DNA of 50,016 nucleotides from a virus, in IMG/VR virus record IMGVR_UViG_3300047678_000727, positions 1 through 50,016 of that record, one strand, 5' to 3'. Positions 8,739 through 34,505 of this stretch are shown here, piece by piece (position 1 is the stretch's first letter; each line of letters opens with the position of its first letter). A program made the position numbers and the translations under genes. The notes beneath the pieces were generated by a model. The model was given only the letters and a program-made list of their open reading frames with translations. It had not been told where the DNA came from and ran no database searches.

Positions 8739-8767
8739 TCGCAACCACCAACAAGGAGACCTGACCC

Positions 8768-9109: not shown

Positions 9110-9132
9110 CCCAAGCTCCGGAGACCGTGCCC

Positions 9133-10545: not shown

Positions 10546-10557
10546 GGAGCATCACGC

Positions 10558-10989: not shown

Positions 10990-11013
10990 TCTCAACGAGA
11001 GGACTCCTGACCG

Positions 11014-11786: not shown

Positions 11787-12259
11787 ACGCTCTCTCCACT
11801 CGACACCTCGCCTACGGCTTCGCGCTGGTGATGATCTCGTTCGGGCTCGCGGCCTGCGCGGGCTTCGACATCGGCGACATCGTCAAGGTCAAGACGCCCA
11901 ACGCGATCCAGCAGACGACGGGGCTTCCCGCACGCACGTCGCTCAACGACGCCGAGGCGGAGTACCGCGCGTGGTTCGAGAACACTCAGCGCGTCGGTGC
12001 CCAATGGAAGGCCAGCATCGAGCGGGGCAACGACGTCCGTGCCCTCCTGAACCAGCTCACGCTCGCCGCGCTCGACGAGGTCGGCCCGACGCTCGCGGGC
12101 GTGCCCGTCGTTGGACCGGCGCTACCGGCGCTGACCGGACTCGTCGGCCTCTTCATCGGTGCAGCACGACTCCGCAAGGAGAAGGAGGCGTCGTTCAACA
12201 AGGGCCTCAAGGAAGGCAGGGTCGGAGCCGGTGCCGCACCTCAGGAGAATGCTTCATGA
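11783..12259 (+). CDS. Phage-encoded lipoprotein
   Basis: A 158-residue protein at ATG 11783, coupled to the GT end. The N-terminus is a lipoprotein signal peptide: hydrophobic core AYGFALVMISFGLAAC with Cys25 in the lipobox LAAC. A helical middle part is followed by a second hydrophobic stretch (VPVVGPALPALTGLVGLFIGAA) and a Lys-rich tail. It may be a superinfection-exclusion or spanin-type membrane protein; placement between tail chaperone and tape measure is unusual for either. Its last 19 bases overlap the end of the antisense gene 12241-12765. Confidence 0.7.
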   Translation: MNALSTRHLAYGFALVMISFGLAACAGFDIGDIVKVKTPNAIQQTTGLPARTSLNDAEAEYRAWFENTQRVGAQWKASIERGNDVRALLNQLTLAALDEVGPTLAGVPVVGPALPALTGLVGLFIGAARLRKEKEASFNKGLKEGRVGAGAAPQENAS

Positions 12260-12765
12260 GCACCGCACTGTCGACGAAGCTCGCCCAGCAACTCGTCCAG
12301 CATTCCACGATCGATGTGGCCAGCAACCGCGACGCGCCGTTCGCGCTCTCCTCGCGCGCGCGCCTGATACCGAATGACCAGAAACGAGCCGCGGTCATCG
12401 TCTTCCAGATGCAGCGCAAGCACCTGCCTTGCGTCGATGCGAACCGCAGAGTTCCCCTGTGCGATCTGAATCCGGTCTCTTCTGATGTCCACATGTCGAG
12501 GTGCGAACACGACGAGCGTCATGATCGCCCCGAGCAGCAGTGGAACCACGACAAACCCCAGCAGAATCTGCACCCAGGGCAGCTGAACCGCCGGGTAAGC
12601 CCAATACAGGGCACCGGTCGACGCTGCCGTGATCACGGCGGCAATCGAGAGCGGGCGTATCCACCAGCGCAAATGGACCACGCCCAAAGAGCGCAGGAAA
12701 TGGGAGGCATCCCGTTTCGTGACGCTGTACGGCTCCCACCACGTGATGCGATCAGAGGAAACCAC
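12241..12765 (-). CDS. Antisense membrane protein with two TM helices and PH-like C-terminus
   Basis: A 174-residue reverse-strand protein starting at GTG 12765. Two hydrophobic helices occur at about residues 38-60 (IRPLSIAAVITAASTGALYW) and 65-90 (VQILLGFVVVPLLLGAIMTL), followed by a beta-rich cytosolic part (HVDIRRDRIQIAQGNSAVRI) resembling bacterial PH-like membrane proteins. Coding character on the + strand here (ATG 12256-12795) is poor and base composition is less GC-rich than neighbours, so the minus gene is preferred. It interrupts the late operon in antisense, as cargo (moron) genes do. Its upstream ribosome binding site is weak. Confidence 0.6.
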   Translation of the reverse strand: MVSSDRITWWEPYSVTKRDASHFLRSLGVVHLRWWIRPLSIAAVITAASTGALYWAYPAVQLPWVQILLGFVVVPLLLGAIMTLVVFAPRHVDIRRDRIQIAQGNSAVRIDARQVLALHLEDDDRGSFLVIRYQARARGERERRVAVAGHIDRGMLDELLGELRRQCGAHEAFS

Positions 12766-12791
12766 GGCAGATTCTACAGGTGGAGGATGCT

Positions 12792-13229
12792 GTGATCGAC
12801 ATGCGGATCACGAGCATGTTCTTCGACCGGCCCAAGATCCTCCGGTCCGTCGATCGCGCGAAGCGCCAAGCACTCTCGAAGGGTGGCGCCTTCATCCGAC
12901 AGGCCGCCCGCACCAGCATCCGCCCGCGCAAGGGAACCAGCACGCCGGGCAACCCGCCGTTCTCGCACGAGGGAAGCCTGCGACGGCTGATCCTCTTCGG
13001 CTACGACGCCGGGAGCGATTCGGTCGTCGTCGGACCCGTCGGATTCCGCTCGTCCACCGCACCCAATGTCCTTGAGTTCGGCGGCACCACGACCATCCTC
13101 CGACGACGGAAGGGCCAGCTCGTGCAGCACCGCGTGAAGATCGCGGCACGGTCCTACATGGCACCAGCGCTCGAACGCGAGCGACCGAAGCTGCCCGCTC
13201 TCTGGCGCAACAGCGTGAGGGGGTCGTGA
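12792..13229 (+). CDS. HK97 gp10-like tail/neck protein
   Basis: A ~145-residue basic protein. GTG 12792 is preferred because GGAGG (12782-12786) lies five bases upstream; ATG 12801 is possible. Features are the helix SVDRAKRQALSKGGAFIRQAARTSIRPRKG, the motif STPGNPPFSHEGSLRRLILF and a strand region SSTAPNVLEFGGTTTI, which match the HK97 gp10/tail-completion type (NPPxxxxGxL). It directly precedes the tape measure gene. The protein likely completes the head-tail interface or tail end. Confidence 0.7.
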   Translation: MIDMRITSMFFDRPKILRSVDRAKRQALSKGGAFIRQAARTSIRPRKGTSTPGNPPFSHEGSLRRLILFGYDAGSDSVVVGPVGFRSSTAPNVLEFGGTTTILRRRKGQLVQHRVKIAARSYMAPALERERPKLPALWRNSVRGS

Positions 13230-13230
13230 C

Positions 13231-15243
13231 ATGCCCCCCGGAGGTGCTCCCAACACCCGCGGCATCCGCGCCGGTCGCGCCTTCGTCGAGCTCGGCGTCA
13301 GCGACAAGCTGACCGCCGGACTCCGTCGCGCCCAGCAGAGGCTGAAGGCCTTCGGCGAGGGCGTGCGTGCCGCCGGGCTGCGGCTCACCGCGCTCGGCGC
13401 TGGCGTGCTCGCACCGCTGGCCGCGAGCGTGAAGGTCTTCTCGAACACCGGCGACGCCCTCGACAAGATGGCCATCCGCACCGGGATCAGCGTCGAGGCG
13501 CTGTCGGAGCTCGGGTTCGCCGCGGAGCAGTCCGGCGCGGACCTCGAGACGCTCGAGACGGGCGTCCGCATCCTGCAACGATCGATCAGCGACGCCGAGC
13601 GCGGGATGTCCACCGCCACCGACGCGTTCGCCGAGCTGAACCTCACAGCCGCTGCCCTGCGCGGCCTCTCGCCCGAGGACCAGTTCAAGCTCGTCGCGGA
13701 CCGGCTGAGCCAGGTGATCGATCCGGCCAAGCGTACGGCGCTGGCGATGCAGCTCCTCGGCCGCTCGGGCACGCGGCTGATTCCGCTGCTCGAGGGCGGT
13801 GCGGCGGGCATCGAGGAACTCCAGAAGGAGGCACGCGCGTTCGGGCTCACCGTCTCGACCGAGACGGCCGCCGAGGCCGCGCTCCTCAACGACACGCTCA
13901 ACATCCTCTGGCGGGTGCTGAAGCAAGGTGTCTTCGTCATCGGCTCGGCGCTTGCCCCGGTCGTGACCGAGCTCACCGGCCGCATCGCCAAGGCAATCGT
14001 CTCGGTCAACGACTGGATTCGGAACAACAAGGGCCTGATCGTCACCGCCGCAAAGGTGGCGGCGGGCGTCGTCGCTGCGGGCGTGTCGCTGATCGGCCTT
14101 GGGCTTCTCATCAGCGGCATCGGTGCGGCGTTCGGCGTGCTGGCCTCCGTCGTCGCGGGCGTCGGCACGGCACTCGGCGTGGTCGGCGCTGTGGTCGCAG
14201 CGCTGCTCTCCCCGATCGGGCTGGTGATCGCGGCGGTGGCCGGGCTCGGGACGGCGCTCCTCGTCTGGTCAGGCGCGGGAGCCGATGCGCTCGCGTGGCT
14301 CGGGGAGCAGTTCGGTCGGCTGCGCGACTTCGCCACCAAGGTCCTCGGCGGGATCACCGACGCCCTCGCGGCGGGCGACATCCCGCTCGCGGCGCAGATC
14401 CTCTGGCTCGCGTTGCAGCTCGTCTGGCAGAAGGGCGTCGCGTCCCTCAGCCGCATCTGGCTCGGGGCACGCGACTTCTTCGTGACGACCGCCCAGAAGA
14501 TGTGGTTCGGGGCGATCGCCGCGGCGCAGATGGGCTTCCACGCGCTCGAGATCGGGTGGATCGAGACGACCGCCTTCCTCTCCAAGACCTGGACGAACTT
14601 CGCCTCGGGATTCCGCAAGGTGTGGGAGACGGCGACGAGCTTCGTCGCCAAGCGGATGCTTGAGATTCAGGGGCTCTTCGACTCGTCGCTCGACGTCGAC
14701 GCCGCCAAGCGGATCATCGACGACCAGCTCGATTCGCGGCTCGGCGAGATCGACCGCGGCGCGCAGCGCGACCTGTCGGAGCGCGAGACCCGACGCCAGC
14801 GCGAGCGCGATGCTGCTGCGTCCCTCAACGAGGCGACGCTGGCCGAGATCGGGCGTCAGTTCGAGCAGGCCCAGGAGGCGCTCAAGAGCGGCAACGACAC
14901 CCGCATCGCGGAAACGGAGCGCGCACTCGAGGAAGCGCGGCGGAAGCTCGATGAGGCGATCGCCGAAGCGAGGCGCAAGCGCGAGGAGACGGACACCGGG
15001 ACGGACGTGCCGCGCCGCTCACCTGCGGACTTGCTGAGCGAGCTCGAGGACCGGCTGGGTTCCCTCGGCGAGCGGATCGGTCGCGGCATCGAGGTGCGCG
15101 GCACCTTCAGCGGCGCAGCCGTCGCCGGGCTGGCGTCGTCCGGCACCGCCGCCGAGCGCACCGCGCGCGCCAGCGAGCAGACGGCCCGCAACACCAAGCG
15201 GCTGGTGGACGCCGCGCAGTCGGGCGGACTCGCGTTCGGCTGA
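13231..15243 (+). CDS. Tail tape measure protein
   Basis: A 670-residue protein that sets tail length. Typical parts are visible: an N-terminal region with KLTAGLRRAQQRLKAFGEGVRAAGL and SNTGDALDKMAIRTGISVEALSELGFAAEQSGADL (the TP901-type tape-measure pattern), a hydrophobic central domain (~residues 270-350, repeated VVAAGVSLIGLGLLISGIG-like stretches), Trp-containing helices, then a long charged coiled coil (~500-590). It is short for a siphovirus tape measure, implying a tail of roughly 100 nm by the usual proportionality. It starts one base after the previous stop. Confidence 0.88.
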   Translation: MPPGGAPNTRGIRAGRAFVELGVSDKLTAGLRRAQQRLKAFGEGVRAAGLRLTALGAGVLAPLAASVKVFSNTGDALDKMAIRTGISVEALSELGFAAEQSGADLETLETGVRILQRSISDAERGMSTATDAFAELNLTAAALRGLSPEDQFKLVADRLSQVIDPAKRTALAMQLLGRSGTRLIPLLEGGAAGIEELQKEARAFGLTVSTETAAEAALLNDTLNILWRVLKQGVFVIGSALAPVVTELTGRIAKAIVSVNDWIRNNKGLIVTAAKVAAGVVAAGVSLIGLGLLISGIGAAFGVLASVVAGVGTALGVVGAVVAALLSPIGLVIAAVAGLGTALLVWSGAGADALAWLGEQFGRLRDFATKVLGGITDALAAGDIPLAAQILWLALQLVWQKGVASLSRIWLGARDFFVTTAQKMWFGAIAAAQMGFHALEIGWIETTAFLSKTWTNFASGFRKVWETATSFVAKRMLEIQGLFDSSLDVDAAKRIIDDQLDSRLGEIDRGAQRDLSERETRRQRERDAAASLNEATLAEIGRQFEQAQEALKSGNDTRIAETERALEEARRKLDEAIAEARRKREETDTGTDVPRRSPADLLSELEDRLGSLGERIGRGIEVRGTFSGAAVAGLASSGTAAERTARASEQTARNTKRLVDAAQSGGLAFG

Positions 15244-16086: not shown

Positions 16087-17093
16087 GCGATGCCCTCAAG
16101 AAGGTCCGCTCAGGCGAACCGCTTCGCATTCCCGCAGCGGCGTACAACGCCTTCATCGACGCGGCACACTTGGCCCGCCGTATTGATGCCGATGCGCAGG
16201 TGGACCCGCTGCGCGCCGGTGTCGGCGAGCAACTGGTCCTCGTGCGGAACGAGTCGGGCGATGACCTGCCGCGCTTCGGCGTGCTCGGGCTCAATGGGCC
16301 GATCATCTCGCCCGCCTCTGGCAGCGAAGGCAACGCCGACGAGTTCAAGCGGCGCGTGGCCATCGTCGGCGCGGCGATCACCGACACCGACGAGTTCGTC
16401 GGCCGCTTCGTCGTCGCGCGCGAGCCGATGGCGGCTGGCCGCATCGGGCTGGCTGTGCTGCGCGGCGTCACACCCGCGGTCGTCAACGTGGTCGACGCCG
16501 AGCACACCCACGCCGACACCGAGGCCGATGCGCAGTTCCTCAGCAGCGGATTCACGGGCGCAGCGCGCATCCTCTGGAAGGAAGCGGGCACCGGCGCGAA
16601 GCTGGCCATCGTCGAGATCGGCCCGGCGAACCGCGACCGCTTCCCAGCTCGCCTGACCGGCGCGACCGACATCGACGGCCGCACGTTCGGCTGGCTCTAC
16701 GGCTGGGCGGAGGTCCGGCTCGATGCCGATCCGGCGAGCAACACCTTCGCGCAGTACGTCACGCCTCCAGAGGGCAGCGGCGCGCTGTCGTCGTCCGGTT
16801 CGGCCGACAAGCTCGCGTTCAACCGCTACGAGGCGCACCTGTCGGTGATCCACGCGCAGTCGGACGCGGGCATCGAGGGCTTCGCCAACGCCGGTGCGTG
16901 TCTCGTGCCCGGCGTGCTCAAGGACTGCCCGCCCGCCAAGGCGGCGGTGCCGTACCTGCGACCCGTGCCGAAGGGCGTCGTCGTCGAGATGCGCGCCGAG
17001 CGGACGTTGCAGGGTCAGACGCGGTTCGTCTTCGACGCCATGACGCCGATCGAGTTCCGGGAGATGACGGTCCCGCAGGAGCATTACGAGTGA
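16083..17093 (+). CDS. Tail tip-associated protein, uncharacterised
   Basis: A 336-residue protein at ATG 16083 (ATGA overlap with the previous gene). N-terminal helix (PAAAYNAFIDAAHLARR), then small beta-domain material with RFGVLGLNGPIISPASG, a possible carbohydrate- or shaft-type region, and a final FVFDAMTPIEFREMTVP. Context between the distal tail gene and modification enzymes suggests a structural tail-tip role. No known motif is clear, so the function remains open. Confidence 0.55.
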   Translation: MSDALKKVRSGEPLRIPAAAYNAFIDAAHLARRIDADAQVDPLRAGVGEQLVLVRNESGDDLPRFGVLGLNGPIISPASGSEGNADEFKRRVAIVGAAITDTDEFVGRFVVAREPMAAGRIGLAVLRGVTPAVVNVVDAEHTHADTEADAQFLSSGFTGAARILWKEAGTGAKLAIVEIGPANRDRFPARLTGATDIDGRTFGWLYGWAEVRLDADPASNTFAQYVTPPEGSGALSSSGSADKLAFNRYEAHLSVIHAQSDAGIEGFANAGACLVPGVLKDCPPAKAAVPYLRPVPKGVVVEMRAERTLQGQTRFVFDAMTPIEFREMTVPQEHYE

Positions 17094-17638
17094 CGGCGCA
17101 CGCCACGATCGACGAGCGCCGCGAGGCTGAGCGCCGGAAGTACCTCGCGCTGCACGCGCGATCCGGTGGCCGCTACGGCGGGAGCAACCACGGCCGCCGC
17201 GCGATCGTGTCGGTGCTCCTGCGCCAGCCGCGCTTTGTCGTCGACTTCGGCTGCGGCAGCAACGCCTTCATTCGCGAGCTGCGGCGCCGAGGTGCCGACG
17301 GCCTCGGGATCGACTTCGCCGACGACCGCGCCGACATCCTTGCGCCGATGCACGCGGTGCCGCTTGCTGCGGGCATCGCCGACGTCGTCACGAGCTTCGA
17401 TGCGCTCGAGCACCTGCTGCCGGAGGATGTTGATGCGGCGCTAGCCGAGATGCGGCGCATCGCCCGGCCCGGCGCGGCGTTCGTGCTCTCGGTGTCGACG
17501 CGACCGAGCCGGATCACCGCTCATGGCGAGAACCTCCATCCGACGGTGCGACCGCGGGCGTGGTGGCTCGAGCGGATCGCACGCGTCGGCCATGTCGGGC
17601 GCCCTGGCCCGTACATCGAGGGGGTGTTCCATGCGTGA
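17090..17638 (+). CDS. Class I SAM-dependent methyltransferase
   Basis: A 182-residue protein starting at GTG 17090, overlapping the upstream stop (GTGA). The SAM-binding motif I is VVDFGCGSNAF near residue 52, followed by the acidic GIDFADDRADI, post-I, then motif-like VVTSFDALEHL and the strand AAFVLSVSTRP, the standard methyltransferase-11 layout. Target is unknown. It overlaps the MptE-like gene by 8 bases, so they likely work together, perhaps on a glycan or on a modified tail component. It is not a DNA methylase of the NPPY/DPPY type. Confidence 0.75.
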   Translation: MTAHATIDERREAERRKYLALHARSGGRYGGSNHGRRAIVSVLLRQPRFVVDFGCGSNAFIRELRRRGADGLGIDFADDRADILAPMHAVPLAAGIADVVTSFDALEHLLPEDVDAALAEMRRIARPGAAFVLSVSTRPSRITAHGENLHPTVRPRAWWLERIARVGHVGRPGPYIEGVFHA

Positions 17639-18500
17639 CCACGACTCCGACATTGCCGCGCTTCATGCCGGGCTGCATGTGCGCCGACCCGCAAAGAACG
17701 GACTGCGGCTCTACACCACCGATTTCGACAGCGTCTCGCTCTGCGACTTCTACCGCGGGCGGCAGGCGTTTCTGGTGCTCTCGGGACCGTCGCTGGCGAC
17801 GCACGATCTCGCGCAGCTCACGCGGCGCGGCATCGTGACCATGGGCGTCAACAACTCGTGGGCGGTCCATCGACCGAACCTCTGGACCTGCGTCGACTCC
17901 GCGGGTCGCTTCATCGACACCGGCTGGAAGGACCCGGGCATCCTGAAGCTCGTGCCGATGTCGGCGTGGAACGAGCGGCTCCGCATCCAGAAGCCGAGCG
18001 GTGCAATGGCCGCGAGCGCCTTCCGCGTGAAGCAGATGCCCTCGGTCCTGCTCTACCGCCGCAGCGAGCACTTCGACCATCGCCGCTTCCTCGACGAGGA
18101 CGTCGTCTGCTGGGGCAACCACACCGCCACGAAGGACTCCATCGGCATCAAGGGCAAGCGCTCGGTGATGCTCGTCGCGCTGCGTCTCCTGCACTACCTC
18201 GGCTTCCGCACGGTCTACCTCGTCGGCGCGGACTTCAAGATGACGCCCGAGCAGGGCTACGCCTTCGACGAGGCACGGAGCGCCGAGGCCGTCCGCCACA
18301 ACAACGTGCTCTACGACTCGCTGAACCGGCGCTTCGAGGCGCTGCGCGATCACTTCAGGGAGCACCGCTTCGCCGTCCTGAACTGCACGCCTGAGAGTGG
18401 GCTCACCGCGTTCCCGCACATCCCGTTCGAGCAGGCGATCGAGAAGGCCTCAGCCGAGTGCGGCAAGACGATCAACACGAAGGGCTGGTACACGACATGA
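17631..18500 (+). CDS. MptE-like (DUF115) protein
   Basis: A 289-residue protein starting at ATG 17631. The order FLVLSGPSL (residues ~45-53), IVTMGVNNSW, and later VYLVGADF matches the DUF115/MptE-like Rossmann fold found in putative glycosyl- or sialic-acid-transferase-type proteins and pterin diphosphokinases. It ends ECGKTINTKGWYTT. A very similar ending is found at the end of the chimeric DUF2924 gene at 37548-38030. In phage tails such proteins probably add or process surface glycans; substrate is unknown. Confidence 0.7.
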   Translation: MRDHDSDIAALHAGLHVRRPAKNGLRLYTTDFDSVSLCDFYRGRQAFLVLSGPSLATHDLAQLTRRGIVTMGVNNSWAVHRPNLWTCVDSAGRFIDTGWKDPGILKLVPMSAWNERLRIQKPSGAMAASAFRVKQMPSVLLYRRSEHFDHRRFLDEDVVCWGNHTATKDSIGIKGKRSVMLVALRLLHYLGFRTVYLVGADFKMTPEQGYAFDEARSAEAVRHNNVLYDSLNRRFEALRDHFREHRFAVLNCTPESGLTAFPHIPFEQAIEKASAECGKTINTKGWYTT

Positions 18501-19564
18501 GCAGCGCCCAAGGCACGAAGTACTTCCTCTATATCCCCGTCTGGGCGACCACGCAGCAGCCGCCCGGCAGCGGGCCGGGCAGCAGCCAGTCCGAGCCGAC
18601 CGAGAGCACCGAGTCGGCCAGCAGCGTCATGAGCAGCGACGATCCGCCGCCGAGTTCGGAGACGGGCGGATCGAGCGGTGTGGGATCGAGTGGCGTCGGC
18701 TCCAGCGGCGTCGGGTCGAGTGGAGTTGGCTCGAGCGGCGTCGGTTCGAGTGGCGGCGGCACGGGGACCGAAGGCACGGGGCCAGGCGGGACCGGACCGG
18801 GCGGAACCGGCCCCGGTGGTACGGGCCCCGGCGGCACGGGGCCGGGCGGAACCGGTCCGGGTGGGAGCGGTTCCTCGAACTGCCTGCTCTACGGCACGCT
18901 CGTCACGATGGCCGACGGCCGCCGCGTGCCGATCGAGATGCTCGCGCCGGGCGATCTCGTTGCGTCACTCGTGGTCCCCGGCCTCAAGACCGACGTGCCC
19001 TTCGGCCGCCAGTACGAGTGGATGTCGACCTGGGGCCTCGTTGGCGCGAGCCTCAAGCCCGCGCGCCTCGCGAGCGTCCAGCTCGGCGAGCACGACGGCT
19101 TCTTCCTCATCAACGGCCGCATCAAGGCGACGTTCGAGCACCCATTCCTCATCCGCCGCGAACACGAGGGTCAGGATGCGTGGGGCTTCTGCGCCGCGGA
19201 ACTGCTCGGCGTCGGCGACATCCTCATCGTGCGACAGCCTGGGGCGACCGACGACGGCCTCGCCGAGGAGCCGATCGTCACCATCGAACGGATCGCCGGG
19301 CGCGTCCGGACGGTCGCGCTCTGCGTGCCCGGCACGAACACCTTCCTCGCCGATGGCGCGTGGACACACAACACCTTCGGGCCGTCCATCCTGACCCAGA
19401 CGTCCGGCAGCAGTTCGAGCAGCAGCGGCAGCTCCAGCGGGAGCAAGTCGAGCGGATCGAGCTTCTCGAGCAGCAGCGGCTCGCCGGTGCTCACGCAGTT
19501 CACCCAGTCGAGCTTCACCTTCGGGGCCAGCAGCGGGAGCGTCGGGCTCACGAACAAGGGCTGA
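18497..19564 (+). CDS. Hint-domain (intein/hedgehog-type) low-complexity tail-end protein, copy A
   Basis: A 355-residue protein with three parts. The N-terminal 23 residues contain YFLYIPVWATTQQPP, shared with copy B. A Ser/Gly region with GVGSS and GTGPGG repeats follows. Residues ~129-292 are a Hint domain: Cys129 opening CLLYGTLVTMADGRRVPIEM, TFEH (Thr212-His215), and terminal VPGTNTFLADGAWTHNT with His291-Asn292, then Thr293. All catalytic positions are present, and Thr293 could act as +1 nucleophile, so splicing or cleavage is possible. The C-terminus is Ser-rich. It ends the phage operon. Function is unknown; autoprocessing of a tail/surface protein is the natural guess. Confidence 0.8.
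   Translation: MSSAQGTKYFLYIPVWATTQQPPGSGPGSSQSEPTESTESASSVMSSDDPPPSSETGGSSGVGSSGVGSSGVGSSGVGSSGVGSSGGGTGTEGTGPGGTGPGGTGPGGTGPGGTGPGGTGPGGSGSSNCLLYGTLVTMADGRRVPIEMLAPGDLVASLVVPGLKTDVPFGRQYEWMSTWGLVGASLKPARLASVQLGEHDGFFLINGRIKATFEHPFLIRREHEGQDAWGFCAAELLGVGDILIVRQPGATDDGLAEEPIVTIERIAGRVRTVALCVPGTNTFLADGAWTHNTFGPSILTQTSGSSSSSSGSSSGSKSSGSSFSSSSGSPVLTQFTQSSFTFGASSGSVGLTNKG
18667..18872 (+). repeat. Tandem in-gene repeats encoding GVGSS and GTGPGG
   Basis: Inside Hint copy A, a run of about five to six 15-base units encoding (SG)VGSS (about 18667-18755) is followed by about six 15- to 18-base units encoding GTGPGG (about 18774-18872). Spacer-like low-complexity linkers of this kind can change length by slippage. 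The paralog at 38027-39043 has a different but equally repetitive GGGTGGT linker (about 38240-38360). Confidence 0.75.
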
Positions 19565-19641
19565 TCGGGGCCTACTGACGGAGCGAGCCGCGCCGGATGG
19601 GCCGGTCGCTGACACCCTGCCGTCACCGGTCGGGCCGTGAG

Positions 19642-19673
19642 CAGTTGACAGCAACTGCCAGAGAGACTTTCAT
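19642..19673 (+). promoter_or_regulatory. Palindromic operator / leaderless promoter of defence cassette 1
   Basis: CAGTTG-ACAG-CAACTG (19642-19657) is a perfect 6-bp-arm inverted repeat that contains the -35 box TTGACA (19645-19650). A 17-base spacer leads to TTTCAT (19668-19673). The expected transcription start is about 7 bases on, i.e. at the A of the HTH gene's ATG (19680), so the message may be leaderless. The nearly same element occurs at 40964-40995. Binding by the HTH product (autoregulation) is the natural hypothesis. Confidence 0.6.
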
Positions 19674-19679
19674 GCCCGC

Positions 19680-19925
19680 ATGGCCGCGACCCGCCGTCAG
19701 CCCGTCCCCCGGAAAGCCAAGCCCGCCTCAGCGGGCCGGGCTGCCGTGCCGACCGACGCGGTCTACACGATCGACGAGCTGGCGATCTACCTGAAGCTCC
19801 CGAAGCGGACGCTCTACAAGCTGGCGCAGGAGGGCACGATCCCCGGCCACAAGGTGGGGAGGCATTGGCGGTTTCTGCGTGAGACCATTGATACCTGGCT
19901 TCGTAGCGGGGACGCGGTGTCATGA
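19680..19925 (+). CDS. Excisionase/MerR-type HTH regulator of cassette 1
   Basis: An 81-residue protein with a flexible basic N-terminus and a single helix-turn-helix of the AlpA/excisionase type: VYTIDELAIYLKLPKRTLYKLAQEG then IPGHKVGRHWRFLRETIDTWL. It ends GDAVS, its stop overlapping the SNF2 start (ATGA). The paralog at 41003-41239 shares the whole HTH core at protein and DNA level. The protein likely controls the downstream restriction genes through the palindrome at 19642-19657. DNA binding is certain from the fold pattern; the regulatory role is inferred. Confidence 0.82.
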   Translation: MAATRRQPVPRKAKPASAGRAAVPTDAVYTIDELAIYLKLPKRTLYKLAQEGTIPGHKVGRHWRFLRETIDTWLRSGDAVS

Positions 19926-22804
19926 CTGCGATCAGTCCGCATCAAGCCTGCTACTACGCCCACGAACTGACCCGCCTAGGCGCGGTCGGCGAGATGGACC
20001 GCCTGTCCACCACGCTCTTCGACTCGAAGGTCGATCTCAACCCCCACCAGGTTGAGGCCGCACTCTTTGCCATCTCCAATCCCCTCCAGAAAGGCGTCAT
20101 CCTCGCGGACGAGGTGGGCCTCGGAAAGACCATTGAGGCAGGCCTTGTCCTATGCCAGCGATGGGCCGAGCGTCGACGCCGCCTAGTCGTGGTTGCCCCT
20201 GCTCATATCCGAAAACAGTGGCAGACAGAGTTGGCCGAGAAGTTCAACCTGCCCGCCGTCGTTCTGGATCGCCGAGTGTGGAACCAGCTGCGAGCAGAGG
20301 GGCAGCCATACCCTTTTGATTGCGGGAAGATCATCGTCATCTCATACGGCTTCGCCGCCCGGATGAAGGACGATCTGCGCGCGATCCCATTCGACCTTGT
20401 GGTGCTGGACGAAGCGCACAAGCTCCGCAATGCCTATCAGCCCAGTCGGAAGGACGGACAAGCGGTGCGATGGGCCTTTGAGCTGAGACAGAAGCTGCTG
20501 CTCACGGCAACACCGCTCCAGAACAGCCTTCTGGAGCTTTACGGCCTGGGTTGGCTGATCGACGACCACGTCTTCGGCGACAAGAGCGCGTTCCAGTCGC
20601 GCTACTGCAACGCTGGTGGCGATCTCGTTGGTCTTCGCGCTCGCCTCGCGCAGGTGTGCAAGCGCACGCTCCGTAAGGACTGCTCGTACATCAACTACAA
20701 GAAGCGGCAGGCGATGACCCATCCGTTCCCGCAGACGGAGGAGGAAAAAGAGCTCCACCAGGACGTGGTGGACTTCATGACGCGGGAAATCAGCTTCGCG
20801 TTCCCGCAGCGCCAGCGCCAACTGATCGAGATGATCTTGTTCAAGACGCTGGCCTCATCGCCACAGGCGCTCGCGAGCACGCTCGGCACCATGCGCAAGC
20901 GTCTGATCTCACTACGCGATGGTCTGCCCGAAGGCTCCGAAGATGATCTCCTCGACGCCCTGGCCGAGGATGAGGACATCGACATTGATGCGCTGGTCGA
21001 GCAGCTCGATGGCGCCGAGGGCACCGCTGGCCCGTCCAGCCCCATCGTTCAAGGCAAGCTGCTTGCGGGCGAACTCGCGCAGATCGACTCCCTGATCGCG
21101 CGAGCAGAGAGGATCGGCAGCGACAGCAAGTCGAAGGCACTTCTCAAGGCTCTGGACGCCGCGTTTGGGCGCCTGAAAGAACTCGGCGCGACGCGCAAGG
21201 CCCTGATCTTCACGGAGAGCCGTAAGACCCAGGCGTTCCTAGCGGCCTATCTCGAGGCCAACGGCTACGCACGCAAGGTTGTCGTCTTCAACGGCTCCAA
21301 CACGCACCCCAGCGCGAAGCAGGCCTACGACCGTTTCACCAGCAGGCATACTGGCACCGACAAGCTCACCGGCTCGAAGGCCGTCGACATCCGGTCAGCT
21401 CTCATCGAGGAGTTCCGCGATCACGGGGAGATTCTGCTCGCAACCGAGGCAGCCGCAGAAGGCGTGAACCTTCAGTTTTGCTCGCTGGTCGTCAACTACG
21501 ACCTGCCGTGGAACCCGCAGCGGATCGAGCAGCGCATCGGTCGTTGTCACCGTTACGGACAGCAGCACGACGTGGTCGTCGTCAATTTCCTCTCGGAGGG
21601 TAACCTCGCCGATCGGCGCGTCCAGGATCTCCTTCAGCAGAAGTTCAGCTTGTTCGATGGGCTCTTCGGTGCCAGCGATGAAGTGCTGGGCGCGATCGAG
21701 GAAGGTGTGGACTTCGAGAAGCGCGTGCTGGCGATCCTTAAGACCTGCCGGACCGACGAGGAGATCGCGCGGGCCTTCGACGCCCTCCAGCAGGAACTCG
21801 AAGCCACGATCTCGCAGAAGATGACGCAGGCCCAGCAGCAGCTCTTTGAGCACTTCGACGCAGATGTCCACGAGCGATTGAAGATCCGCGGGCAGGACGC
21901 GCAGGTTGCCCTCGACCGCGTTGGTGAGAGATTTTGGAAGCTCGCGCACTGGGGTCTCGACGGTCGGGCAACCTTCGACGATTCCCGTCTTGGGTTCGAC
22001 CTCTCGGCCGCGCCGTCCCCGGACGTCCCGGCCGGTCGCTACCGCCTCATCTCCGCGGCACACTCCGAGGAGGACTATGCGGCGACCGAGGCACACCTGC
22101 TCCGGTTGTCCAGTCCGCTGGGGCAGTGGCTCCTTGGCACCGCAAAGACTCAGACCCTGACATCAGCGACCGTCCGGTTCGACGTGAGCAACCACGACCG
22201 CAAGATCAGCATGCTCAAGCCGCTGGTCGGCAAGCGCGGTTGGTTGCGGCTCGACAAGCTGACGCTGGATAGCGATGCGCGCGAAGAGTTCCTGCTCTTC
22301 ACCGCTGTCACTGATGAGGGCGACAACATCGATCAAGAGCTCCTCCACCGCCTGATGGATGTCTCTGGCAGCGTGGCCGCAGATGCGAGCGAGTGTGTCC
22401 CGCCTGAAGACCGCCTGACGGCCGACGCCGACCGACTGACAAGAGCGAGCCTCGCGCGAGCGAGCGAGGCGGGTGACGACCGCTTCCGGAGAGTCCAGAC
22501 TCAGGTCAACCAGTGGGCGGACGACAAGATCGCCGCCGCCGAGCTGGAACTGGATTCCATCAGGCGTGACCTTCGTGCCGCCCGACGCCAGGCCGACCTC
22601 GCAGAAACCGTGGCTGCACAGCAGCAGTCGATGGAGCAAGTGACGCAGCTTGAAGCGAGACGCCGCCGCGCCCGGCGGAACATCGATGATGTCGAGGACA
22701 CCGTCGAACTGGAACGACAGAGGCTCCTTCAGCAGCTCCAGGCTCGTTGCCAACAGCACCACTCACGCGAACACCTGTTCACTCTCCGCTTCGAAGCGGC
22801 CTGA
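19922..22804 (+). CDS. RapA-like SNF2-family helicase/ATPase of a restriction system
   Basis: A 960-residue superfamily 2 translocase. The first RecA domain has motif I DEVGLGKT (residues ~63-70) and DEAH (163-166), followed by LLTATPLQNS; the second shows EAAAEGVNLQFCSLVVNYDLPWNP and QRIGRCHRYGQ. A long C-terminal coiled-coil region (LEARRRRARRNIDDVEDTVEL) follows. The layout resembles RapA/HepA-like SNF2 proteins found beside type III-like methylases and in DISARM (DrmD), but other DISARM genes are missing here. It probably translocates on DNA to recognise or process foreign DNA together with the next two gene products. Confidence 0.85.
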   Translation: MTAISPHQACYYAHELTRLGAVGEMDRLSTTLFDSKVDLNPHQVEAALFAISNPLQKGVILADEVGLGKTIEAGLVLCQRWAERRRRLVVVAPAHIRKQWQTELAEKFNLPAVVLDRRVWNQLRAEGQPYPFDCGKIIVISYGFAARMKDDLRAIPFDLVVLDEAHKLRNAYQPSRKDGQAVRWAFELRQKLLLTATPLQNSLLELYGLGWLIDDHVFGDKSAFQSRYCNAGGDLVGLRARLAQVCKRTLRKDCSYINYKKRQAMTHPFPQTEEEKELHQDVVDFMTREISFAFPQRQRQLIEMILFKTLASSPQALASTLGTMRKRLISLRDGLPEGSEDDLLDALAEDEDIDIDALVEQLDGAEGTAGPSSPIVQGKLLAGELAQIDSLIARAERIGSDSKSKALLKALDAAFGRLKELGATRKALIFTESRKTQAFLAAYLEANGYARKVVVFNGSNTHPSAKQAYDRFTSRHTGTDKLTGSKAVDIRSALIEEFRDHGEILLATEAAAEGVNLQFCSLVVNYDLPWNPQRIEQRIGRCHRYGQQHDVVVVNFLSEGNLADRRVQDLLQQKFSLFDGLFGASDEVLGAIEEGVDFEKRVLAILKTCRTDEEIARAFDALQQELEATISQKMTQAQQQLFEHFDADVHERLKIRGQDAQVALDRVGERFWKLAHWGLDGRATFDDSRLGFDLSAAPSPDVPAGRYRLISAAHSEEDYAATEAHLLRLSSPLGQWLLGTAKTQTLTSATVRFDVSNHDRKISMLKPLVGKRGWLRLDKLTLDSDAREEFLLFTAVTDEGDNIDQELLHRLMDVSGSVAADASECVPPEDRLTADADRLTRASLARASEAGDDRFRRVQTQVNQWADDKIAAAELELDSIRRDLRAARRQADLAETVAAQQQSMEQVTQLEARRRRARRNIDDVEDTVELERQRLLQQLQARCQQHHSREHLFTLRFEAA

Positions 22805-22821
22805 TACAGCATTGAAACGTC

Positions 22822-24336
22822 ATGCCCACCCCGAACACCGCGATCACGGATAGCAAGTTCAACGCCCTCAAGGCCAAGCTGAGGGAGTTGTTCGAGCTCG
22901 ACAAGTCCGACCTGGACTTCGGCATCTATCGCATAATCGCCGCCAAGAACAAGGAAGTCACCGAGTTCCTCGACCGCCAGTTGAAGGATGTGGTCCGTGG
23001 AACGCTCGCGGCGCACGGGGCCGGGGCTGCCGATCAGGTGCAAGCCGAGTTGGACAAGGTGATCGAGCAGGCTCGCGCCCTCGGGGCCGATCCTGAGACG
23101 CTGCCCAAGGTAAGAGACCTACGCGCCCGGCTGGAGTCCGCGGGCGGTGCGGCATCCGCTGACCTCGAAGCCGACATCTACAACCACCTGTTGGCCTTCT
23201 TCGGGCGCTACTACGACGAGGGCGATTTCATTTCGCAGCGTCGGTACAAGGGCGACACCTACGCGATCCCGTACAGCGGCGAAGAGGTGACGCTCCACTG
23301 GGCCAACAAGGACCAGTACTACATCAAGTCCGGCGAGTGGCACAAGGACTACCGCTTCAAGATCGGGGACAAGATCGTCCGCTTCAAGTTGGTCGAAGCC
23401 ACGCAGGAGGTCGGCAACAACAAGGAAGCGGACGACGCCAAGCGACGCTACATCCTCGCGGCAGAGAATCCCGTCGAGGAGTCACCAAACACCTTGACGC
23501 TGCGCTTCGAGTTCCGCGTGCCAACGCAGGCCGACAAGGACCGTGCCGCCGCCGGCGCCGTCACCGTGTTCGGCGGCGACTATGCCAAGGCCACAAGCCC
23601 CAAGAAGGGTGACGAGCGAGAGCAGTTCTGCGCCGACGCTGAGAAGCGAGTGATTGCTGCGATGCCCGAGGCGTGGAAGACGTTGGTCGCCGTCCCCGGG
23701 GCCGCCGCCACGGCGGACAAGCCCGCACGATCGCTCCTCGGCAAGCATCTGGATCATTTCTCCGCGCGCAACACCTTCGACTACTTCATCCACAAGGACT
23801 TGGGCAGCTTCCTTCGCCGCGAGTTGGATTTCTACATCAAGAACGAGGTGGTGCGACTGGACGATCTGGAGTCGCTTCCGCCCGACCGCCTGCAGCGCGT
23901 GCAAGGCAAGGTCAAGGCTATCCGCGCCGTGGCCAGCCGCCTGATCGCGTTCCTCAGCTCGCTCGAAGACTTCCAGAAGAAAATGTGGCTCAAGAAGAAA
24001 TTCGTGCTCAACACGAACTGGCTCGTGACCGTGGACCGCCTCCCGCCGGCACTGCGCGATGTGGTCGTAGCAAGCGCCGAGCAGTGGGCCGAGTGGGAGC
24101 GGCTGGGCTTCAAGCCGGAGAACATGGGTGACGCCGGACTGTTCGGGGGGCGGCGTGGGGAACCCGAGCGTACCTGGACGCGTGCGACAAGCTGGTCGTG
24201 GATACGCGGTTCTTTGGATCAGAGTTCACATCCGAGTTGCTCTGCGGAGACACGGTGCTCTGCGGTGCGAGCACGGCGGACGAGTGCACCGCAGGGACGG
24301 TCGTTTCTGGCGACAATTTCCACGCGATTAGGCTAA
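22822..24336 (+). CDS. Type III-like Mod methyltransferase, N-terminal fragment
   Basis: Frame 1 encodes the N-terminal part of a site-specific adenine methyltransferase: a helical start (KFNALKAKLRELFELDKSDLDFGIYRII), YIKSGEWHKDYRFKIG, and KPENMGDAGLFGG. Near 24145-24150 the frame becomes nonsense (RRGEPERTWTRATSW), while the expected continuation GTRAYLDACDKLVVDTRFFG is read in frame 3 from the same bases. Thus a single base is missing (or slippage is needed) in the G6 tract. The reading to 24336 is an artefact of the wrong frame. Spacing to the SNF2 stop is 17 bases. Confidence 0.8.
   Translation: MPTPNTAITDSKFNALKAKLRELFELDKSDLDFGIYRIIAAKNKEVTEFLDRQLKDVVRGTLAAHGAGAADQVQAELDKVIEQARALGADPETLPKVRDLRARLESAGGAASADLEADIYNHLLAFFGRYYDEGDFISQRRYKGDTYAIPYSGEEVTLHWANKDQYYIKSGEWHKDYRFKIGDKIVRFKLVEATQEVGNNKEADDAKRRYILAAENPVEESPNTLTLRFEFRVPTQADKDRAAAGAVTVFGGDYAKATSPKKGDEREQFCADAEKRVIAAMPEAWKTLVAVPGAAATADKPARSLLGKHLDHFSARNTFDYFIHKDLGSFLRRELDFYIKNEVVRLDDLESLPPDRLQRVQGKVKAIRAVASRLIAFLSSLEDFQKKMWLKKKFVLNTNWLVTVDRLPPALRDVVVASAEQWAEWERLGFKPENMGDAGLFGGRRGEPERTWTRATSWSWIRGSLDQSSHPSCSAETRCSAVRARRTSAPQGRSFLATISTRLG
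24145..24150 (+). other. G6 homopolymer at the methyltransferase frame break
   Basis: TTC-GGG-GGG-(G)CG GCG TGG GGA ACC: with a seventh G the two frames join as LFGGAAWGTRAYLDACDKL. The sequence shows six Gs, so the break is a one-base deficit. It could be an assembly error, a mutation, or phase variation by slippage. Confidence 0.75.
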
Positions 24337-26153
24337 TGCTACCGGTCTTGCGGGGTGCGGTTCAGGGTATCTACATCGATCCCCCGTACAACACAAGTGC
24401 TTCGGAGATCGTCTACAAGAACGGATATCGTAGTTCGTCTTGGGCGAGCATGATCGCAGATCGCATTCAGCTCGGACGTGTGATGCTGAGTGCAACGGGT
24501 GCACACTGCTACACAATCGACGACTACGAACTCGCGACGTCGCTCCGCCTTCTCGATAACGTCTTCTGCAGCGAGAATCACCTTGCAACTGTGCCGATTC
24601 GAAACAATCCACAAGGGCGCTCCACCGTCGAGGGATTTGCGGTTAACCATGAGTATGCGATCTTCCACCGTGCGTCTGCATCACTAGAATCTGTCGGTCG
24701 ACTGGAGCGCACGCAACAGCAGATAGATCGATATCGAGAGCGAGATGAAAGAGGCAGACGATTCCTCTGGGACAATTTAAGGAAGACCGGGACCGACTCA
24801 GAAAGGGCTGATCGGCCGAAGCAGTACTTCCCCCTGTACGTCCACCCCGACAACACCGTGTCTATTCCGCAGATGGAATGGAGGCGGGACCAGAGTGTGT
24901 GGGAAGTGATCGCCGAGCCCCCGCCTGGAGTGTCCGTCGTGCTACCGGATACGCAAAGCGGAGAGCAGAAATGCTGGAAGAAAGGTGCTGACACGCTTCA
25001 GGAGCTTTTGCCACTGCTTCGAGTCGAACGGGACGGTGACCGAGTAGAGATTTACTACCGCGGGTACCTGAACGACGCTGGACGATTGCCTGGCACATGG
25101 TGGGACGAGGCAAAGTACGCGGCAGGATCGCACGGAACAAATCTGCTCGCGTCCATGTTTGCCGGGGCCCGCACCTTCTCGTTCCCAAAGTCGATTCATG
25201 CGGTACAAGATTGCCTTCGGGTGCTTGGTGTGAGGGACGGAGACGTTGTGGTTGACTATTTTGGGGGATCAGGGACAACTGCCCACGCGGTCCTTGAACT
25301 CAACCGGGTGGAGGAACTGCGACTCAGATTTGTCATTGTTGAGATGGGCGAGTACACCAGGTCCGTTCTGTTGCCGCGCATTGCCAAAGCGAGCTACTCG
25401 CCCAACTGGAGCGAAGGCCTAGCGACTTCTCATGACAAGGGGCTCTCCGTTCTCATTAAGTGCATTGCTGTCGAATCCTACGAAGACGCCCTCAACAACC
25501 TCCCCGCGCCGTCCGGCACGCTTCTCGATGGCCGTTCGGACGCCGAGAAGGACGCCCTGCTCACCTACGGTCTCGATCTCGAACTCGGCCCGCACCTGCT
25601 CAATCTGGACGCCTTCCGCGATCCGTGGGGTTACGCCATCCACGCCCAACTGGCGGGCGACGCCGAGATCAAGCGGCACCGTGTCGATCTAGTGGAGACC
25701 TTCAACTACCTGATCGGCCTGAAGGTGCATGCGTACGGGCCGCTGGAGCGGTACAGCGCCGACTTCGAGCGGGCCGCGCACGCCGATGGCCTCGGACGGA
25801 TCAAGATCACGGGCCGCTTGCGCCGCGATCCGAACGGCCCGTTCAAGTTCCAACGAGTCGAGGGCGAGTTGAACGACGGCAGCGCGACCCGCGTGCTCGT
25901 GGTCTGGCGCAAGCTGACGGACGACGCGGAGCAGGATGCCGCCGTGCTCGATGCATGGATGGCCCGGCACCGCGAGACCACCCGCGAACGGACGGAACAC
26001 CGCGATTACCACATCATCTATATCAATGGCCCGGTGACATTGCCGCAACCGACGGCGGAGATTCGCACCGTGTTCCCGACCGAGGAGACGTTCAAGATCA
26101 AGATGTTCGAGGACACGGACTCTGCGTCCGGCCCCGGAGGCGTCAATGGCTAG
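24198..26153 (+). CDS. Type III-like Mod methyltransferase, catalytic/TRD and C-terminal fragment
   Basis: 651 residues if read from ATG 24198, but as a unit this is the continuation of the gene at 22822. Motif IV DPPYNT is at residues 61-66; motif I FGGSGTT is at 355-361. Motif IV before motif I is the beta-class order, with the target recognition domain between them. A middle stretch (about 24190-25450) is visibly less GC-rich than its flanks, then composition returns to normal, suggesting exchange of the catalytic/TRD module. The end overlaps the Res-like start by 8 bases. The merged protein would be about 1110 residues. It would protect host DNA; if truly broken, the nuclease may be self-toxic or silent. 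Confidence 0.8.
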   Translation: MDTRFFGSEFTSELLCGDTVLCGASTADECTAGTVVSGDNFHAIRLMLPVLRGAVQGIYIDPPYNTSASEIVYKNGYRSSSWASMIADRIQLGRVMLSATGAHCYTIDDYELATSLRLLDNVFCSENHLATVPIRNNPQGRSTVEGFAVNHEYAIFHRASASLESVGRLERTQQQIDRYRERDERGRRFLWDNLRKTGTDSERADRPKQYFPLYVHPDNTVSIPQMEWRRDQSVWEVIAEPPPGVSVVLPDTQSGEQKCWKKGADTLQELLPLLRVERDGDRVEIYYRGYLNDAGRLPGTWWDEAKYAAGSHGTNLLASMFAGARTFSFPKSIHAVQDCLRVLGVRDGDVVVDYFGGSGTTAHAVLELNRVEELRLRFVIVEMGEYTRSVLLPRIAKASYSPNWSEGLATSHDKGLSVLIKCIAVESYEDALNNLPAPSGTLLDGRSDAEKDALLTYGLDLELGPHLLNLDAFRDPWGYAIHAQLAGDAEIKRHRVDLVETFNYLIGLKVHAYGPLERYSADFERAAHADGLGRIKITGRLRRDPNGPFKFQRVEGELNDGSATRVLVVWRKLTDDAEQDAAVLDAWMARHRETTRERTEHRDYHIIYINGPVTLPQPTAEIRTVFPTEETFKIKMFEDTDSASGPGGVNG

Positions 26154-29100
26154 GCGACCCCGTGTGCAACCGGACTTCCACCGCCAGACGGTGTTGTTTC
26201 AGTGGGCGCTGGCGAAGCTTGGCGTCAAGGACTTGAAGCAGTTCAAGGATCGCTTCCAACTCTCCCCGGACAATGCCGAGGGAATCGACGAACGAACGGG
26301 CCTGCATCGATTCTTCGAGGCCATAGCCGGAGTGTTGCCCACTGTCACCGACGCCAACGTCGTGCCTTTGGATCGCCTGCGAGCCTTTGAGCAGAACATT
26401 CTCGAGCACACGCAGGCGATCAATGCGGCCCGGTTTCGACACAATCAGCCTCGGATCGATTGGAAATACCACCAGTATCTCGCGCTGCTCTTCACGGAGT
26501 TGTTTCTCGATCGGTACTTCGACGACGCGGCCGCCGTCCGTGACGAGATCAACACGCGAATCGCCGAGCACAACGCGGAAGCTGCCGAGCCCGATCGGGT
26601 CGCGCCGTTCCCGACCGACGCAGTTGGCGACGACGATGCCGACCCGCGTCGGCAACTGGCTCGACTCGCGTTCTGGTGCGCCACGGGCAGCGGCAAGACG
26701 CTTCTCATGCATGTGCATGTACGGCAGTTCCGGCAATACCACCAACGGGCCTTCGCCGCAGGCACATGGCCAAAGCTCGATCAGATCATCCTTGTGACTC
26801 CCAACGACGGGCTCAGCGACCAGCACGCGACGGAGTTCACGCAGTCTGGTTTCGAGGTTGTGACTGTCGGCGAGCAGGGTGTTGATGGGCTCTTCTCCGA
26901 AGTCGCTCAGCGCGCGATCAAGATCCTCTCGATCCACAAGTTCCAGGATGACCACGGCCAGGCGACTGTGGCGACCGAGGCGTTCGCGGGGTGCAATCTG
27001 GTCCTCGTGGACGAGGGGCACCGTGGCGCGGGTCGCGGCGAGGACGGCAAGTGGCTCTCGCGACGCGATCAGCTCGCCAAGGGTGGGTTCTGCATCGAGT
27101 ACTCTGCCACGTTCAAAGAGGCAATCGGCACCGACGAGGCGATGAAGAACAGGTACGCCCGGAGCGTGCTGTTCGACTACGCCTACCGCAGCTTCTATCG
27201 CGATGGGTACGGCAAGGACTTCACGATCCTGAATCTGGAAGACGACGACAAGCAGCGGCGATACCTCACCGCAGCAGTGCTCTTGTTCTATCAGCAGTTG
27301 CGGGTGTGGATGGACGGCGGCGAGGCGATGAAGCCGTTCCAGATCGACAAGCCGCTATGGGTGTTCGTCGGGCACACGGTGACGGGCGGCAAGGTGTCGA
27401 GCACGGACGACAAGGAGTCCGTGTCGGACGTCGTCGAAGTGCTCCTGTTCCTGAAGGCATTCCTCGCCGCGCCCGCCGAGGCGGTCGCGCTCATCCAGAG
27501 CTTGCTGGAGGAAGGGTTCAAGGATCAGAACGGGCGTGACCTGCTGGCGCACCGGTTGCCGCACATTGATGTGTCCGGCGACAAGGCCGCGCAGGCACGG
27601 GCGCTGCACGAGGGCATTCTGAGGGATGTGTTCCACGCTCCCGGTGGCGGCGTGCTGGCCGTCCAGATGCTCAGAGGGGCGACCGGTGAGCTGGCGCTCA
27701 AAGTCGGCGAGGCCGAACCGTTCGGCGTCGTCAATGTGGGTGAGCCGGGCGCTGTCGCGGACGCCTGCGAGGCCAAGGGTGTCGTGCGATTGGAGGATGA
27801 TGCCAATCGCTCGTCTCTGTTCCAGGGCATCAACCGTGATGACAGCCCGATCAATCTTCTCGTGGGCTCCCGGAAGTTCACGGAGGGGTGGAACTCCTGG
27901 CGTGTGTCGTCCATCGGGCTCATGCGCATGGGTAAGAGCGAAGGCACGCAGATCATCCAGTTGTTCGGGCGGGGCGTGCGGCTGCGGGGTTACCGGATGA
28001 GCCTGCGCCGATCCTCCGTGCTGGCGGACAAGCCAGCGCCGCCCAGGAATCTGCGGCAGGTCGAGACGCTTCAGGTCTTCGGCGTCAAAGCCACCTACAT
28101 GAACACGTTTCGGGACTGGATTTTCAGCGAGGTTCCGGAGGCACAGGAGAAGCAGGTCTGGGACATACCGGTCGTCAAGACGCTGCCGGAGCGAAAGCTC
28201 AAGACGCTTCGTCTGCGTGCGGAGATCGATGGCGAGACCGTGGAACGCGGCCAGGCGTTCCGCAAGCTCGGGCCGCTCGTGCGGCTCCGGCCGCCGCACG
28301 AGACCGCGCCGGAGGATGCGTGGCTCCGACACCATCGCACCAAGCTGAACTGGCTGCCGCGCATTCGCGGCATCGCCGGTGCAAATCAGCAGATCACCGC
28401 CGCGATCGGGCAGGCCGCGGAGCTGCCGAGGCAGACGCTCAAGTCAGTACCGCTGTTCCTGTTCGATCTCGACGGCCTGTTGTTCGGACTTGAAGCATTC
28501 AAAGCGACCCGTGGGCTGGATCGTCTGCACGCCGATCTCGCGGCCATCACAGCGATGTTGACACGCGACGACTGGTACGAGTTGCTGGCGACCACCGACG
28601 ACATGCGCCTCGACCGCTACGAAAATCGCTCGCACTGGCAGCGCATGGCACAGCAGTTGCTGAACGCCTATGCCGAGCGGTTCTACCGCTACATCCGGGG
28701 GCGATGGGAAGCGCCTTATCTGGAAGTGGCCGAGCTGGCACCCGACGATCCCAACCTCGTGGACGGATACAGCATCGAGACGACTGATCTGGCGCAAACC
28801 GCCGAACAGATCGAGCAGATTGCGACCTTCATCGAGGGGCTTAAAACGGCGCTGGGGCAGAACCTCCTCGCCACGTGGAGCCAGTGGGGCGGGCGTTGGC
28901 GCACGGTGCCGTTCGGAGGCCACCTGTATCAGCCCCTCCTCCACGTCGGGAAGAACGCGGAGATCCGGATCAGCCCCGTCGCCCTCGACAAGTGGGAGGC
29001 TCAGTTTGTGCAGGACCTGGCCACATGGTGCGCGGCCAACCGCGGGAGCGAGGTCTACCTCCTGCGCAATCAGGCGGTCACGGGCCTCGGGTTCTTCCAG

Positions 29101-32810: not shown

Positions 32811-32927
32811 CGAGCATGACGGCGAGGTCTACCGCTCGCTGAGCGCGGTCGCCCACGCGATCACCGGATCGCATTGGAACGGGCTCCTCTTCTTCGGGCT
32901 CACGAAGCCCAAGGAGGCGGCACGCTC

Positions 32928-32931: not shown

Positions 32932-34492
<1,561 letters not shown>

Positions 34493-34505
<13 letters not shown>

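Follow-up and report, generated by a model that had tools for sequence, protein, structure and literature searches.

Organisation of the two HTH-headed defence operons

The window, the whole stretch of 50,016 nt that was analysed, is the complete IMG/VR record (IMGVR_UViG_3300047678_000727) of a prophage, the host of which is probably a Phycisphaerae-like planctomycete. PHROGs matches locate the phage structural context at 5117–15243 on the plus strand, including a portal (5117–6607), a head protease/major head protein (6591–8738) and a tape measure protein (13231–15243). The window also harbours two defence operons, both on the plus strand and each opening with a small HTH_17 gene. Between them lies a large serine recombinase (32874–34505, plus strand; Resolvase, Zn_ribbon_recom and Recombinase domains), which is the prophage integrase, and a DUF2924 protein is encoded at 37548–38030.

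The first operon begins with HTH gene 1 (19680–19925), which has a predicted leaderless start and encodes a presumed autoregulator of 81 aa with an HTH_17/excise-type winged HTH (wHTH; Pfam HTH_17, 3.2e-16; TIGR01764, 4.3e-17). Behind it are a DrmD-like SNF2 helicase of 960 aa (19922–22804; PADLOC DrmD, 1.3e-182), a type III-like Mod methyltransferase (22822–26153; PDLC03646) and a type III-like Res of 1106 aa (26146–29466; PADLOC REase_III, 3.2e-166). Assignment of this payload to DISARM was considered and rejected, as the SNF2 protein falls under both NCBIfam DrmD cut-offs (608 vs 950 bits, and 288 vs 610 bits), and its partners are type III-like Mod/Res proteins instead. The Mod gene is present as two ORFs (22822–24336 and 24198–26153), the overlapping frames of which match successive parts of PDLC03646 with one frame change, whereas the gene is intact in a relative (L052_2), the product of which is at least 1037 aa long and 72 % identical. 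This split could reflect a mutation, a programmed frameshift or an assembly error.

The second operon opens with HTH gene 2 (41003–41239), which possesses a GTG start, is likewise predicted to be leaderless and encodes a presumed autoregulator of 78 aa (Pfam HTH_17, 1.3e-15). Its payload is a type I restriction–modification (R-M) system, with HsdM (41286–43766; N6_Mtase, 2e-99; TIGR00497 above cut-off), HsdS (43763–45055; Methylase_S, 9.6e-20) and HsdR (45052–48138; TIGR00348 above cut-off) occurring together. A YgjP-like metallopeptidase (48128–48856, plus strand; PF01863, 5.6e-59) overlaps the end of hsdR.

Promoters of the window HTH genes

An initial, sequence-only reading of this DNA proposed that the two HTH genes share a palindrome over the −35, with equal spacers and start codons at the predicted +1. 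The placement of these elements is correct throughout: the 16 bp sites CAGTTGACAGCAACTG (19642–19657) and CAATTGACAGCAACTG (40964–40979) overlap the −35 sequence TTGACA at 19645–19650 and 40967–40972, both spacers are 17 nt, and the start codons, ATG at 19680 and GTG at 41003, follow 6 and 7 nt past the −10. The symmetry itself is less uniform than was proposed, with a perfect 6 bp inverted repeat in the first copy but only 5/6 matching positions in the second. The −10-like hexamers TTTCAT (19668–19673) and TCCAAT (40990–40995) each match the consensus at 4/6 positions, and strict sigma70 scans called no promoter at either window site because these hexamers fail the rule that A is required at −10 position 2. 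With up to three mismatches allowed, the palindrome motif occurs twice in the window against 0.35 expected occurrences, a count reached by 5/100 shuffles, and by itself this is only modest evidence against chance. On comparative grounds, as it precedes both HTH genes and recurs at 90 loci, the shared site is far beyond chance.

Conservation of a 10 bp direct repeat in the core promoter

Relatives of both HTH genes were gathered from IMG/VR plus genomes, with one per species, and their upstream sequences were compared. The resulting 90 loci derive from Planctomycetota, Desulfobacterota, Eisenbacteria and others, and display one common upstream element, described here by a position weight matrix (PWM). 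Read in 10 bp units, this matrix is C-A/G-A-TTGACA, G, CAACTGCCA, G and C/T-AACTGTTA-AAT. Its conserved feature is a 10 bp tandem direct repeat, YAACTGNNA, occupying the 17 bp spacer: the −35 TTGACA lies inside a degenerate unit 1, and units 2 and 3 fill the spacer and run into the −10. The sequence-only reading had described a property of two cassettes, and so missed that the same leader is widespread and interchangeable.

The two best PWM matches in the window, with both strands scanned, are the sites before the two HTH genes. Operator 1 (19642–19673; score 19.0) is composed of unit 1, CAGTTGACA (19642–19650, including the −35), unit 2, CAACTGCCA (19652–19660), and a degenerate unit 3, AGAGACTTT (19662–19670). 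Operator 2 (40964–40995; score 17.8, the second-best match) similarly contains CAATTGACA (40964–40972, including the −35), CAACTGGGC (40974–40982) and a degenerate CCAGTGTCC (40984–40992). Units 1 and 2 are thus intact in both window copies, and they resemble an inverted repeat because CAATTG/CAGTTG nearly complements CAACTG.

Across 82 distinct sites, identity at an offset of 10 bp is 0.448, in comparison to 0.17–0.32 at other offsets, and a PWM-free count of exact 5-mers returns 65 repeats at this offset vs 28 expected. The same count gave a 13 bp direct-repeat signal, which was put down, by eye, to a local duplication in one locus (L052). The inverted arms match at a mean of only 2.8/6 positions and are perfect in 5 of the 82 sites, and the left arm outside the −35 is not conserved across sites. 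Whilst the seed for the first PWM was chosen by eye, both the held-out and the PWM-free test give concordant results: upon removal of sites at least 70 % identical, all 90 loci retain a site at p<0.02, 83 of them at the same position. By this comparison, the 16 bp ‘palindrome’ is best read as a tandem direct repeat.

The distance from the −10 to the first in-frame start falls into two classes among the 90 loci. In 37, including both window genes, the start is no more than 10 nt from the −10, nearly all without a Shine–Dalgarno sequence; the remaining loci mostly start 16–84 nt from the −10, many with a Shine–Dalgarno sequence. Leaderless starts for HTH1 and HTH2, as originally proposed, are therefore well supported by comparison with their relatives.

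Specificity of the element for HTH genes

The comparison supports a shared HTH-linked operator within the core promoter. At a PWM score of at least 18, 77 sites lie upstream of HTH genes and 0 elsewhere in 0.94 Mb around the relatives. Among the 14 best profile matches from 30 whole genomes, 13 are directly upstream of an HTH gene found independently by protein profile. The fourteenth, in Rhodopirellula, is followed by a short leaderless reading frame and then by an hsdM that appears truncated; no HTH gene is present. This locus (L187:8491–9247, minus strand) presents the operator and leaderless promoter directly before the hsdM remnant, and its 5′ leader resembles those of two HTH loci (L026 and L076), which would fit a loss of the HTH; due to the apparent truncation of its hsdM, it offers little support for control in trans. 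At a further locus (L188:1856–3094), the operator precedes a 324 aa gene of no known function, with the HTH gene only afterwards.

The full 33 bp profile is needed for such searches, as the short pattern TTGACAGCAACKGNNA alone is unspecific: in 199 Planctomycetota genomes it has 14 matches vs approximately 11 for the reversed pattern, and only 2 of them precede an HTH gene. A strict-filter profile search of 392 phylum-wide genomes returned chance-level matches only, bar one known HTH site, and operators far from HTH genes are therefore without support. More distantly, HTH_17 proteins of enterobacterial heat-resistance islands, 47–50 % identical, are not accompanied by the YAACTGNNA element. 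In these tLST/clpK islands (L099, L101, L103 and L104, on enterobacterial plasmids) the first gene is an HTH_17 gene with its own 10 bp tandem, TCTTGCAAAG/TCTTGCAAGA, in the corresponding place upstream, as would follow from each HTH subfamily recognising a repeat specific to it.

Family and fold of the HTH proteins

The nearest relative of HTH1 (from L019) displays 93 % identity over 74 aa, and the orthologue of HTH2 (from L025) 90 % over a 48 aa core; both derive from one metagenome-assembled genome (MAG), Planctomycetia SRR2107179_bin.59. For HTH2, no matching phage record was found. The two window proteins had been called near-identical in their DNA-binding core, which applies to the helix-to-wing stretch YKLAQEG.IPG.KVGRHWRF (18/20 residues) but not to the 48 aa core as a whole, where identity is 73 %.

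An AlphaFold2 model of HTH1 is a winged HTH with a core pLDDT of about 90. Its best Foldseek matches in the PDB are RdfS (8dgl), BldC on DNA (6ama and 6amk), RacA and the Pukovnik Xis, with weak E-values (best 1.4e-2) for what is a small domain of ~50 residues. A profile search of PDB sequences has RdfS as its best match at an E-value of 0.079, with BldC not listed. In the manner of BldC-like regulators, the window HTHs are small, wHTH-only proteins (HTH_17/MerR-like), and their relatives have direct-repeat sites about one helical turn apart, unit 3 being degenerate in the window. As the sequence match to BldC is not significant, the family is proposed to work like BldC, and is not filed as its orthologue.

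Payload variety and exchange behind a constant leader

At least one R-M or defence-type protein is found among the first downstream genes at 82 of the 90 loci. Using labels that are homology clusters, each annotated via one representative, the payloads comprise SNF2 DrmD/HmaA-like proteins (24 loci), type I HsdM/S (18), type III-like or other N6/N4 methylases (15), HsdR (13), Schlafen/RecG-like proteins (10), BREX BrxC (9), DUF1156 methylases (9) and type IIG enzymes (6), with DUF499, DruE-like, DrmMII-like, UvrD/GajB-like, SspB and other proteins also present. A protein family of ~900–960 aa occupies the payload slot of five loci (L009, L010, L024, L034 and L098); it has no PADLOC match and is a candidate new defence protein.

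Comparison of individual loci reveals that similarity in the leader is not accompanied by similarity downstream. Window 17622–19891 is 85 % identical to L020 (Phycisphaeraceae ACE_PLA6), with the alignment ending 34 bp short of the stop codon of the HTH gene; L020 then carries a type I system, the HsdM of which is only 30 % identical to that of the window. L019 shares window 16276–20580 at 83 %, yet its SNF2 protein is only 42 % identical. The converse is seen for L052, L068 and L086, where SNF2 proteins 73–80 % identical to that of the window occur with HTH cores of only 62–71 % identity. Overall, 94 locus pairs share promoter and HTH DNA at 75 % or more, of which 73 are without alignable payload DNA and 61 without a homologous payload protein. 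At one locus in three Phycisphaerales genomes with differing payloads, similarity is 88–92 % up to where the HTH gene ends, disappears for the following 7–9 kb and returns at 83–85 % thereafter; a second pair behaves alike. As most leader-sharing pairs differ downstream, and similarity breaks off around the 3′ end of the HTH gene, the promoter–HTH module is, by these comparisons, a constant leader with an exchangeable payload.

Proposed mechanism and alternative explanations

On balance, we consider it fairly likely that both window sites are copies of one widespread regulatory leader, in which a repeat-filled, sigma70-like promoter is followed by a BldC/RdfS-like HTH gene that heads a defence operon and limits its own expression. 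Sequence comparison supplies the architecture, specificity, leaderless class, payload variety and exchange, to which we add, by inference, HTH binding, its head-to-tail mode, repression, delay in a naive host and cross-control. The mechanism is proposed mainly because both fold and site resemble those of BldC. By analogy to that protein, HTH monomers would bind the repeats head-to-tail, covering the promoter from −35 to −10, and the bound protein would hold back transcription of the HTH gene together with the downstream operon. The promoter might stay open in a naive host until HTH accumulates, as for an R-M controller protein. Due to the leader being constant and the payload variable, any operon that arrives and recombines in behind the leader would acquire existing control, and regulators could be shared between several cassettes in a cell. 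Core-promoter autoregulation is suggested by the position of the element, and is probably repressive, as the repeats sit over both −35 and −10. Cross-control between HTH1 and HTH2, linking both cassettes, appears plausible given their 18/20 identity from helix to wing, their single operator family and the Rhodopirellula hsdM that carries an operator without an HTH gene.

Activation by the HTH instead of repression is possible, although we regard it as unlikely. In such a case, the spacer repeats would act in the style of the MerR family, by recruiting or remodelling RNA polymerase where the −10 is poor, and this would suit the 4/6 hexamers of the window and an element situated between −35 and −10, as in MerR promoters. 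MerR promoters typically have a long spacer. Here, however, the spacer is an ordinary 17 bp, the −35 is consensus and many relatives have better −10s. Related wHTH proteins argue both ways, as RdfS1271 activates rdfG, but RdfS represses its own promoter (PMC11963761).

More doubtful still is a reading in which the HTH is simply the first gene, and the element either represents a promoter variant or serves as the site of another host factor. The −35 and −10 do explain part of the conservation, and the window has two clear units only, one of which is the −35 itself, such that a pure promoter reading is possible for the window taken alone. Against this, the spacer bases are conserved across phyla though sigma70 does not read them. 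A second motif, TGACR-N6-YGTCA, is present upstream in some loci and genome-wide in at least one genome (G003; 98 sites vs 0 for the reversed control), as might be anticipated for a host factor; nevertheless, the operator tracks one HTH subfamily, is missing from the rest of the genomes, and is replaced by a different 10 bp tandem at more distant HTH_17 genes.

Slightly less probable again is the original proposal that a symmetric HTH dimer represses each cassette from the 16 bp palindrome. Beyond the arms of the window copies, this draws on the left-arm CAR, which is conserved in the closest relatives (L019, L020, L024, L038 and L045), but in L025, which carries the orthologous HTH2 leader, the arm is disrupted (CATTTG). 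Moreover, perfect arms are rare amongst the distinct sites, the stronger repeat is direct, with its units on a single strand, and BldC-type proteins are without the dimerisation domain of classical MerR proteins (PMC5859096). Finally, that the HTH is a recombination directionality factor (RDF; excisionase) for the serine recombinase or for cassette exchange, with the repeats as recombination sites, is very improbable, since, despite its match to the TIGR01764 ‘excisionase family’/HTH_17 domain, its structural neighbours RdfS and Pukovnik Xis (both RDFs), the large serine recombinase in the window and the payload exchange junctions at the HTH 3′ end, defence-type or R-M genes follow at nearly all loci, the repeats overlap −35 and −10 at fixed spacing, the junction is about 200–300 bp from them and varies by tens of bp around the HTH end, as homologous recombination predicts, and the window recombinase is 6.5–13 kb from either HTH gene, not in integrase/att adjacency.

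Returning to the repeat-filled autoregulatory leader, a broader and distinctly more tentative proposal is that the promoter–HTH unit serves as a general socket for defence operons. Payloads would be swapped by homologous recombination, integron-like in effect and not in mechanism, and the resident cassettes could form one cross-regulated regulon, as their HTH proteins are proposed to read the same repeats.

Relationship to known regulatory systems

BldC of Streptomyces binds its site, 5′-CAATTCGGACAATTCGGACA-3′, a direct repeat, in a head-to-tail manner (PMC5859096). The leader HTHs share with it a small wHTH without an effector domain, direct-repeat sites and a fold match. BldC is, however, a developmental regulator with dispersed targets, 9 bp repeats (in crystals) and an AATT core, whereas the leader has 10 bp YAACTGNNA repeats inside the core promoter of the HTH’s own defence operon. 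RdfS, which assembles into head-to-tail filaments and reduces the activity of its own promoter (PMC11963761), and other RdfS/Xis-type RDFs are similar in their HTH_17 wHTH and include the best Foldseek match, but act with a recombinase at att sites, whilst the leader HTH is encoded at the start of defence operons, with a core promoter as its site.

The leader HTHs would function like the C proteins of type II R-M systems, such as C.AhdI, which are small HTH autoregulators co-transcribed with restriction genes; the AhdI C transcript is leaderless (PMC5333194). C proteins belong to another HTH family and bind symmetric C boxes as dimers, in contrast to an HTH_17 wHTH with direct repeats, and here the same leader is found ahead of type I, type III, IIG, BREX, DISARM-like, Hma and DUF499 operons. 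Co-localisation of one regulator family with many defence systems is also known for the BrxR/CapW WYL regulators (PMC9122601), although BrxR, at ~295 aa, carries a WYL ligand-binding domain and binds inverted repeats, whereas the leader HTHs are ~80 aa and have no sensor. MAD1, the HTH_17 protein of the methylation-associated defence system MADS (NF047737), has an HMM that matches the window HTHs at 7e-20 and 4.5e-17, but at 70.9 and 62.0 bits these are under the cut-off of 80, and the payloads are SNF2 plus type III-like R-M and type I R-M, not MADS. No earlier description of a shared promoter–HTH leader with exchangeable payloads was found in the open-access papers searched.

How large, potentially toxic defence operons are restrained, and yet expressed in a new host, is a poorly understood problem, to which a leader of ~300 bp before many unrelated defence systems in several phyla offers a directly testable answer. 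The leader would also extend BldC-type direct-repeat regulation to immunity genes, and provides a genomic handle for new defence systems, as for the 900–960 aa family described above.

Additional upstream features

A 16 bp inverted repeat of fixed spacing, TGACACCCTGCCGTCA (TGACR-N6-YGTCA), lies at 19610–19625 and is the only exact match in the window. The same motif occurs 23–46 bp upstream of the operator in 13 loci (the window, L006, L008, L011, L012, L014, L016, L019, L020, L033–L035 and L061). The comparison suggests a putative second regulatory site, which in G003 would belong to a host-wide regulon of another factor. It was also considered as a terminal repeat of the cassettes, and dropped due to the single exact copy in the window and its genome-wide occurrence in G003.

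Upstream of the second cassette, window 38051–38949 is 64–67 % similar to the DNA just upstream of the HTH1-like cassette in L019 and L020, so related genes may precede the two cassettes. The gene upstream of the first cassette ends (at ~19.3–19.4 kb, within 16276–19578) in what looks like a Hint/intein-type C-terminus.
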